33,705 nucleotides of DNA from an uncultured Bacilli bacterium (GTDB taxonomy: Bacteria; Bacillota_I; Bacilli_A; RF39; UBA660). Positions 21,079 through 23,945 of the stretch are shown in pieces. The stretch is from NCBI GenBank assembly GCA_947589195.1, contig CANPZX010000010.1, positions 1-33,705 on the forward strand, in the 5' to 3' direction. The notes under the pieces are model-generated. The model saw only the letters and a list, made by a program, of their open reading frames with translations, made no database searches and was not told where the DNA came from. Position 1 is the stretch's first letter. Every line of letters begins with the position of its first letter. A program made the translations under genes and the position numbers.

Positions 21079-21104
21079 AAACTTATCGTTTTACAGATAA
21101 GTTT
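21079..21104 (-). terminator. Strong intrinsic terminator after the surface protein gene
   Basis: AAACTTATC-GTTTTACA-GATAAGTTT perfect 9-bp stem, T-rich tail on minus strand. Confidence 0.85.
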
Positions 21105-23055
21105 AAAAGACGAGAACAAGACGGAAACCAAAATATACAGCCGCAGCGCCACTATCCCTACTGAAGTAGAACAGACCCGCATCCGTACCATTCCAGCTAA
21201 TACCACCACGATTCACCCAAAGAGCATCCGAATACATGGGCCATGCACCGTCACTATACCAACTTCCTATTAGTCGAGAATACGGTTTAGCTTCTGCAGT
21301 TGTCCCAATATATTCTATGCTTCTAAATGGTCCCATTTCGTTTGTTGCATCCCCCAAGATAAATTTTGTATAGTCATTTCCATTTGTATTATATGGATAT
21401 ATATCATAATATCTCGAATCTTCTGGTAAAGCTATCCCATCTTTAACTTCACTATTATCAGTATTTTTACCATTAAATCCAGAGTTATTACTAGAATTTA
21501 AACCAGAAGCTAATTTATTTGAGTCAAGAGAATCTTCCATACCTGCCATCACATATTCCCAAGTTCCACCACTCATATCAAAGATTCCACTATAATTATT
21601 GGTGGTAGAAGCAACTACACTTGCAGAATTAAAGTAATTTACATTTACTTCACCATCTGATCCCTTAGTTGCTCCACCATATTCATTACAAGCTTTTGGA
21701 TAAGTCGTGCATGGTTCATTTGTTCCGGTATTTCCCGTTGTAGGAGCATTCTTTGCTGCATATCCCGTTAAATAACTTTCATTATTATTTATCCTTACTT
21801 CTTGTCTACTTCCATAGATACTTTGGCTTAAATAGGCAACTGCTCCCCATTCCGTATTCTTCATCATATGGCTATTTAATTCTTCTTCATAATTTCTGCC
21901 AACGATATAAGCCCGAGAAACTTGTATTCCTCGCCAACTATATACATTGGGTTTAATGATGACATTTTTAGCTTCTTCTATAGCATCATTTTCATCAGTT
22001 GGATTTTTTTGAGCTTCTTCTTTGCTATTTGCTCCTTTATATCCTGTTTCAAACTTTCCTACCCAAATGCCATTTGTATTGAAAGCGGTAAATGCCGGAT
22101 GCGTTAGCCATTTGCCTTTAGTATTTCCCTCGGATTTTTCAGTATCCTTATTTTCAAATACGACTTGAATTGTTTGTACTCTATCTTCTATCTCTTCTGA
22201 TAATTTATCATATTTCTCATCACTAAATATTTTATATCTGTATCTTGGGATCCACACAAAATAACTTTCGATATCATTTTCATTTATTGTTGCTCCTACT
22301 TTCGGAGTTTCAACATTATCATTTAAAATAACTGCATTCGCCCATTCTTGATTAGAGTAATTGTACCATTTTTGATTTAGATCTGCTCTTGTTACTTCTC
22401 CTTTATCATCAACTACTACTGGGATAAGTTTTTCATCAAGGACTGGGTCGGCTCCATTTAAGATATCTTCTTTATATTTGCCTTCAGTTTTTTCTACGGC
22501 TGCTTCAACAGTTATTTTACTTTCAAAGATTTTATTCATTGTTGCCTCGGCAACTTCGATCGTAACACTTTCATCCATCCATAGTCTTACTTCAAAATTT
22601 ATGACTTGGTCTTTTCTTAAATGACCTTCAGCTATCTTATAACTTTCAGCGTGGTCTTCTAAAATACCATCACTTGTTGTATATTCACTTAATAGTTTTG
22701 AATCTTCACTATTTACTTTTAAGGCTATATATTTACTTGCTAATTCATTATCTAATACTTCTAAATTGACTTGATATTTTGTCTCGGCATCACATATATT
22801 TTTTATTGTTAATGTATAAGGAGTCAACTTTTCTCCTTCACTATTTAATATGGGTATTGCTTCTTCTAAATCAATATTATTTCCTTCACTAAATTCTAAT
22901 TTAAAACAATCACTTGCTAATTTATTAGCATCTACTTGAGTAAATGTTGTCTGCCAATAGGCATATGTTACCCCTATTAATAAAGTTATTAAAAGAATTA
23001 TTAAAGATGTAAGGATTACTTTCTTACTCTTAAATAACCCCCCCCCCATTTGCAA
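21103..23055 (-). CDS. Exported surface protein with FGE/C-type-lectin-like C-terminal domain
   Basis: Signal/TM segment VILTSLIILLITLLIGVTYAYWQTTF (SipW-substrate/camelysin-like), FGE-like YSGIFDMSGGTWEYVM, C-terminus WVNRGGISWNGTDAGLFYFSRDSGAAAVYFGFRLVLVF. The ORF caller used TTG at 23055; the best ATG (23065) is out of frame because of a G10 tract. Confidence 0.8.
   Translation of the reverse strand: MQMGGGLFKSKKVILTSLIILLITLLIGVTYAYWQTTFTQVDANKLASDCFKLEFSEGNNIDLEEAIPILNSEGEKLTPYTLTIKNICDAETKYQVNLEVLDNELASKYIALKVNSEDSKLLSEYTTSDGILEDHAESYKIAEGHLRKDQVINFEVRLWMDESVTIEVAEATMNKIFESKITVEAAVEKTEGKYKEDILNGADPVLDEKLIPVVVDDKGEVTRADLNQKWYNYSNQEWANAVILNDNVETPKVGATINENDIESYFVWIPRYRYKIFSDEKYDKLSEEIEDRVQTIQVVFENKDTEKSEGNTKGKWLTHPAFTAFNTNGIWVGKFETGYKGANSKEEAQKNPTDENDAIEEAKNVIIKPNVYSWRGIQVSRAYIVGRNYEEELNSHMMKNTEWGAVAYLSQSIYGSRQEVRINNNESYLTGYAAKNAPTTGNTGTNEPCTTYPKACNEYGGATKGSDGEVNVNYFNSASVVASTTNNYSGIFDMSGGTWEYVMAGMEDSLDSNKLASGLNSSNNSGFNGKNTDNSEVKDGIALPEDSRYYDIYPYNTNGNDYTKFILGDATNEMGPFRSIEYIGTTAEAKPYSRLIGSWYSDGAWPMYSDALWVNRGGISWNGTDAGLFYFSRDSGAAAVYFGFRLVLVF
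23038..23047 (-). repeat. Homopolymeric G10 tract (C10 on + strand) at the 5' end of the surface protein gene
   Basis: Direct count: taaataa-CCCCCCCCCC-attt. Confidence 0.97.
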
Positions 23056-23090
23056 TTTTTTCCATTTTTATCTTCTCCATTCTTATCTAT

Positions 23091-23119
23091 AGTATAAGAT
23101 AAATTAAATTTAATTTCAA
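23091..23119 (-). promoter_or_regulatory. Promoter TTGAAA-17-TATACT of the surface protein gene
   Basis: -35 complement TTTCAA 23114-23119, -10 complement AGTATA 23091-23096; GGAG at 23075-23078, 9 nt before ATG 23065. Confidence 0.75.
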
Positions 23120-23165: not shown

Positions 23166-23945
23166 TTATTCAATAACATCAAATAAATACATTGAATTTT
23201 TTTTATCATTAACAACACTTTTATTTAATTTTTTACCATTATAAGCATATAACTTATTTTCGTAAATACCAATATGTTCAAAATTATAAGCATTAATATA
23301 ATTTTCCTTATTATTTCTATCTCTTGTTGCATCTCTTACTACTTTAAACTTTTTATTTTCATAATGTAAATCAGTTATTATTAAATCTTTATTTTCCGTT
23401 AAAGTAATAATTCTTAAAATACTTGATATACCATTATCACTATCTTCTTTAAATTCATCATAAACCTCTTTATTAAAATATTTACCATTTTCAATTCCAA
23501 AATAACCATCATTTTTGGCTTCATCAATAGTATATTCTTGAGGAATGAGTTCGATCTTTTTTAAAGAAGTATCGATATCACAAGTATTACCAATAGCATA
23601 GTAAATTGATATTTCATTTAACCATTTTTTCTTAATTTCATAACGACTTACGGTAAAATCTTTTTCTTCATTATAATAATAAGTTTTACCATCACAATTT
23701 ATTTTTTGATATTTACTTAAAAATTTATTAATATCTTTTTGTAATCCCCATTTACTTCTTAAAGTTTGAAATTTAACTTCACTAGCACTTACTTCTTCTT
23801 TAAATTTAACTAAATTAGGAATTTCTAATACTTTTAAACTATCTTTTGTCACATATATTGTTCTTCCTAAAGGGATTTCTAATATTATTAAAACTACCAA
23901 AGCAATCATGGCGATAATAATTAAATATCTGGCTTTAATATTCAT
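23166..23945 (-). CDS. Hypothetical protein with N-terminal membrane anchor
   Basis: YLIIIAMIALVVLIILEIPLG followed by an apparent extracellular domain; no family recognised. Confidence 0.75.
   Translation of the reverse strand: MNIKARYLIIIAMIALVVLIILEIPLGRTIYVTKDSLKVLEIPNLVKFKEEVSASEVKFQTLRSKWGLQKDINKFLSKYQKINCDGKTYYYNEEKDFTVSRYEIKKKWLNEISIYYAIGNTCDIDTSLKKIELIPQEYTIDEAKNDGYFGIENGKYFNKEVYDEFKEDSDNGISSILRIITLTENKDLIITDLHYENKKFKVVRDATRDRNNKENYINAYNFEHIGIYENKLYAYNGKKLNKSVVNDKKNSMYLFDVIE

Follow-up and report, generated by a model that had tools for sequence, protein, structure and literature searches.

A run of ten G residues (G10) at the 5' end of a surface-protein gene probably acts as a slipped-strand phase-variation switch that chooses among surface proteins with DGR-type variable tips; the probability of this reading is put at about 0.82. 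The gene lies in the window, the whole stretch of 33,705 nucleotides analysed here. In the proposed mechanism, DNA polymerase slippage would lengthen or shorten the run by a single G. With nine or twelve Gs a strong start codon, ATG 23065, would be in frame and the membrane-anchored surface protein would be made; with ten, the only start in frame would be a weak one that overlaps the run, ATG 23049, and with eight or eleven there would be none. Most of the approximately 71 run-bearing members of two protein families, A and B, would stand at G10, OFF or low at any time, with the few at G9 ON, and adenine-directed mutagenic retrohoming (DGR) in the lineage would make the C-terminal variable regions of both families. 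The switch would thus pick from a stock of surface proteins that differ in their tips. Poly-G phase variation and DGRs rank among the fastest known means of altering a bacterial surface, and an uncultured gut lineage appears to hold dozens of genes that join both systems; by inference, one cell line would likely be able to turn these proteins on and off and also to keep a large set of variants at the ready.

Anatomy of the proposed switch and its genome-wide set

The anatomy of the locus is shown. The window gene belongs to family A, encodes an exported surface protein and is read from the minus strand (21103..23065, counted from ATG 23065), as are the other features of this locus. Its coding strand carries, in order, GGAG (23078-23075)-N9-ATG (23065)-GAAAAAATTGCAAAT-G10 (23047-23038)-TTATTTAAGAG. 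The Shine-Dalgarno-like GGAG (23075..23078) stands 9 nt 5' of the main start (23063..23065), and the G run (23038..23047), the proposed slippage switch, starts six codons past that ATG. At G10 the main start is out of the protein frame and reads MEKIANGGGVI followed by a stop; the frame downstream of the run is open for about 640 codons, to 21103, and only G9 or G12 would fuse ATG 23065 to the intact exported protein. Two claims of the original prediction, that the run throws a well-placed ATG into a stop and that nine or twelve Gs restore the frame of a whole 640-residue exported protein, therefore held. Its statement that an ORF caller could use only TTG 23055 was not exact: a second ATG (23047..23049), the last base of which opens the run, shares that frame and at G10 reads MGGGLFKSKK... 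The resulting product, MGGGLFKSKKVILTSL, retains the whole hydrophobic N-terminal export or anchor segment (VILTSLIILLITLLIGVTYA, 22960..23019; helix 9-28 in a low-confidence fold model). By overlooking this in-frame start, the description of the locus as captured in the OFF state was too strong, and "OFF or weak" is the appropriate term. Because ATG 23049 lacks a well-placed Shine-Dalgarno sequence, output is inferred to be graded, likely high at G9 and G12, low at G10 and absent at G8 and G11. The promoter-like TTGAAA-17-TATACT that had been noted upstream is present (23091..23119, 10/12 matches), but it is a consensus match only; with 15 promoter-like matches found in the region vs 12.1 in shuffles, it proves little by itself. 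The neighbouring gene on the same strand (window 23166-23945) encodes an N-terminal hydrophobic segment and has a weak DUF4362 match (E 7.5e-4, below cut-off).

Contig C10, which makes up the window, comes from a MAG (G000) of 1.35 Mb and 88.6% completeness, in which pattern searches found 84 runs of at least seven Gs; sequence was examined only in stretches around the runs, not over the whole genome. The fetched stretches hold 85 runs, one of them cut by a contig end, with 65 at G10, 10 at G9, five at G11, four at G8 and one at G7. A first-order Markov model built from the window, which is 72% AT and whose A and T runs do not exceed 8, predicts only about 0.13 G/C runs of at least 10 and 3.4 of at least 8 in 1.354 Mb; the MAG has 83 of at least 8 and 79 of at least 9. 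Such runs are thus far more frequent than chance predicts. The picture of a lone switched surface protein had to be corrected: the window protein has 30 matches within its own genome, and its gene is a member of one of two extensive families whose tips vary in the DGR manner.

About 71 of the runs lie at the 5' ends of these two paralogous exported families, 60 of the 71 at G10. The 25 family A runs (19 G10, three G9, two G11, one G8) share the anatomy of the window gene and nearly all lie 18 nt past an RBS-ATG; an overlapping ATG is in frame at G10 in 11 of the 25, and in all three G9 copies the upstream ATG reads into the protein. The 46 family B runs, a count that leaves out one acyltransferase (L070) from a class of 47, are mostly 50 or 74 nt past the RBS-ATG and encode glycines within the N-terminal hydrophobic segment of exported proteins that extend about 350-376 residues past the run. 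In both families, every run with a visible upstream ATG needs a length divisible by three to close the frame, so that the common G10 is off by one and G9 is ON. Lengths from G8 to G11 occur among paralogs with similar flanks. At the two ends of contig C70, 169 identical nt surround a family B run that is G10 at one end and G9 at the other; these may be tandem or otherwise separate gene copies, or possibly one locus caught at two lengths.

The pattern extends beyond this genome. Such runs were found in 22 of 22 genus members, with G10 the commonest length across the genus, and a combined sample of 106 ORF-type runs comprised 14 ON, 83 off by one and nine off by two. A binomial test of the ON counts (P 2e-6) ignores paralog kinship and serves as a guide only. 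G8, G9 and G10 all occur among the ORF-type runs of one relative, G014. Among 289 genomes sampled from the order, the MAG studied here ranks first for runs of at least nine Gs, and 115 have none. Several relatives encode the same surface family without a coding run and carry instead a promoter-spacer run, TTGAC(A/T)TA-G10-N8-TATAAT, mostly 36-41 bases 5' of the start codon. At G10 the spacer is 20 nt, three above the usual 17, and under both wirings, therefore, expression is probably weak at the commonest length. Promoter-spacer runs of G9-G10 stand ahead of relatives of the window protein at L155, L156, L158, L162, L166-L168, L171 and L173.

The OFF-length copies keep open frames, with a median dN/dS of 0.29 in family B (all 540 pairs below 1) and 0.65 in family A, and purifying selection on them is shown. 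In the same MAG, G10 keeps several polysaccharide or membrane genes in frame (two at L053, an ATP-grasp gene at L069 4754 and an acyltransferase gene at L070), which argues against a base-count artefact, as a constant miscount would break them; L069 3636 is in frame at G9, and further run-bearing genes of this kind are out of frame. The run length in a consensus assembly likely represents the majority length of the population, an inference under which uniform G10 fits a fast switch favouring G10. At L069 and L070, on contig C18, acyltransferase genes are clustered with ATP-grasp genes for sugar transfer; their runs, from G8 to G10, are partly in and partly out of frame, and the cluster may be a phase-variable polysaccharide locus.

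Variable tips and DGR cores

The codon alignment of family B shows a near-invariant scaffold with scattered NNC/NNT codons, whose neighbours are constant even at synonymous sites. Variation falls mostly at the first and second bases of these NNY codons and uses all four bases, a mark of adenine-directed mutagenic retrohoming. When 29 template-like family B regions, 22 of them within OFF-length genes, were compared with the template of the relative G008, entropy was 1.43 at template-adenine columns and 0.30 elsewhere (p 1.6e-10); family B variable regions thus differ from this template mainly at adenines, and adenine-directed variation in this family is shown. For family A the evidence is less direct. 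The third base is C or T in 0.87 of the hypervariable codons vs 0.45 in the body, and the variable region of the window protein (21130..21255, minus strand), ahead of a conserved GFRLVLVF end, displays the same third-base bias; a template of a similar C-terminus is present in a relative, L362. Family A, however, varies also at non-adenine sites, and divergence at other bases is high, so that a DGR origin of its tips is likely but inferred, and with drift at other bases it is not proven. L067 and L110 have a variable region in common in different backgrounds.

The fold around the variable region is weakly supported, and ligand binding by the tips is an inference. A C-type-lectin/FGE fold rests only on weak FGE-sulfatase and DUF6273 matches, the models being too poor to add support. 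The FGE-sulfatase-like stretch of the window protein (21535..21699, minus strand; E 0.03) recurs in 6 of 25 relatives with a best E of 6e-4, in both cases below the curated cut-off. Two fold models had a mean pLDDT of 59-60, and their Foldseek matches, none to a lectin, were disregarded; searches of solved structures gave nothing useful.

DGR cores in relatives are shown. A complete element (RT with an IGxxxSQ motif, Avd, template and target) is present in G008, G011 and G021, while G010 has an RT of a second lineage, accompanied by a bAvd gene and by the template for a C-terminus like that of family A. The G008 element comprises an RT with the motif IGSQISQ, an Avd-like protein, a template and a family B target; the type-1 Avd-like protein has no Pfam match and was named from its position and size. 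G011 combines in a single genome an intact core and targets that bear G10 and show an adenine bias in their changes. Between Avd and RT, G008 L352 has a second, mutated template copy, and at G010 L353 the template's place holds a near-copy of the variable region without adenines.

In the window's own MAG, by contrast, no RVT_1 profile match was found in the 88.6%-complete assembly, nor was the predicted template, with up to three mismatches allowed, found in the genome. A DGR was initially set aside for want of the RVT_1 match, a decision reversed by the family B codon pattern and the relatives' cores. A protein search revealed on contig C90 (L384, 671-2517) a fused Avd-like fragment followed by a 45-residue RT C-terminus, beside a family B gene; this core remnant lacks the template and most of the RT. 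An intact core may lie in the roughly 11% of the genome that the assembly does not cover; otherwise the strain keeps a repertoire made earlier. Present DGR activity here remains an inference. Near position 5759 of L202, a G8 run lies in a gene resembling a small MutS-domain-I accessory that adjoins DGR RTs in relatives; it is possible that this accessory of the mutator is itself switchable. Proteins encoded on viral IMG/VR contigs (L331-L341) share 35-38% identity with the C-terminal half of family B; no family A relative was found on viral contigs.

Weighing the explanations

Programmed slippage is one rival: G10 would be a fixed site at which RNA polymerase or the ribosome slips, giving steady low protein from every copy without heritable switching. 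The predominance of G10 in the two families and genus-wide, together with the selected frames behind it, fits this view. Against it, runs with near-identical flanks can also be G8, G9 or G11, the ORF-type runs of G014 include G8, G9 and G10, other genes have the run in promoter spacers, where frameshifting would be senseless, and polysaccharide genes are in frame at G10. This explanation is unlikely, yet no length variation within a population has been seen at any one locus, and given the uniformity of G10 some fixed-length mechanism remains possible. Equally improbable is that ATG 23049 is the working start and G10 the ON state, with ATG 23065 a decoy or the start of a short leader. The in-frame position of ATG 23049, the retained hydrophobic segment and the 11 similar family A runs speak for it; but G10 is also found in the other family A members and in nearly all of family B, which lack such a start, the GGAG is better placed for ATG 23065, and in the three G9 family A copies it is the upstream ATG that is in frame.

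Variable C-termini could also arise without a DGR, by gene conversion and diversifying selection among paralogs. The lack of an RT or template in the assembly, the variable region shared by L067 and L110 and the non-adenine variation of family A favour this account, which is nevertheless unlikely: variation in family B is concentrated at adenines of a relative's template with the fixed codons constant even synonymously, and an Avd/RT remnant adjoins a family B gene on C90. Assembly or sequencing error, with a true G9 and genes constitutively on, would be conceivable because reads through G runs are error-prone (PMC9187656); it is very unlikely, since other genes of the same MAG are in frame at G10, all lengths from G8 to G11 are called in the same contexts and the pattern repeats in independent MAGs.

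Slipped-strand ON/OFF switching, as originally predicted, is thus supported by every check possible without reads or strains and has not been shown directly: slippage in living cells, reversible expression and expression of the proteins are all inferred. No second strain of the species exists in the data; run lengths differ among paralogs and among species. In a bolder extension of the slipped-strand reading, retrohoming would rewrite the tips while poly-G silences the genes and shields them from selection, and slippage would then reveal a few variants per cell. This idea is judged less likely than not; if true, silent diversification would constitute a two-layer system of antigen or phage-receptor variation. 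Whether silent copies are rewritten before they are switched on is a question that existing metagenomes could address. Many such proteins will be given a wrong start, or lost, by gene callers and in MAG consensus sequences.

Relation to known systems

Surface genes switched by poly-G and DGRs with several targets each have precedents (PMC4965091; PMC9187656; PMC4891356; PMC6642488). In the open literature searched, by titles and abstracts, no paper on DGR targets under homopolymer phase variation was found, which is not proof of absence, and nothing relevant emerged on phase variation in RF39 or from metagenomic repeat surveys.

C. jejuni NCTC11168 has 29 poly-G/C loci of at least 7, and runs of G8 and G11 switch readily there (PMC4965091). 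The present set resembles these loci in its G runs of 8-11 in surface-structure genes, its frame switching and its many loci per genome, and differs in having about 84 runs, mostly in two paralogous exported families with variable tips and nearly all at one out-of-frame length. The pilus G-tracts of Bifidobacterium breve, likewise intragenic and in a gut commensal, lie between a signal-encoding and the main ORF and are of mixed length (PMC9187656), but there are one or two pilus clusters per genome, with no DGR-type variable regions reported. The lic loci of Haemophilus influenzae exemplify a repeat-driven frame switch in which alternative start codons in different frames grade expression; these rely on tetranucleotide repeats and encode glycan enzymes, with no known paralog repertoire. 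Isolates of Treponema denticola have two to seven exported DGR targets, TvpA and its paralogs, in which a single template directs diversification at adenines (PMC4891356), as opposed to the dozens of targets here, most of them behind a poly-G switch, with RT and template missing from the MAG or lost. What is new, then, is the pairing of a poly-G switch with DGR targets on the same genes.
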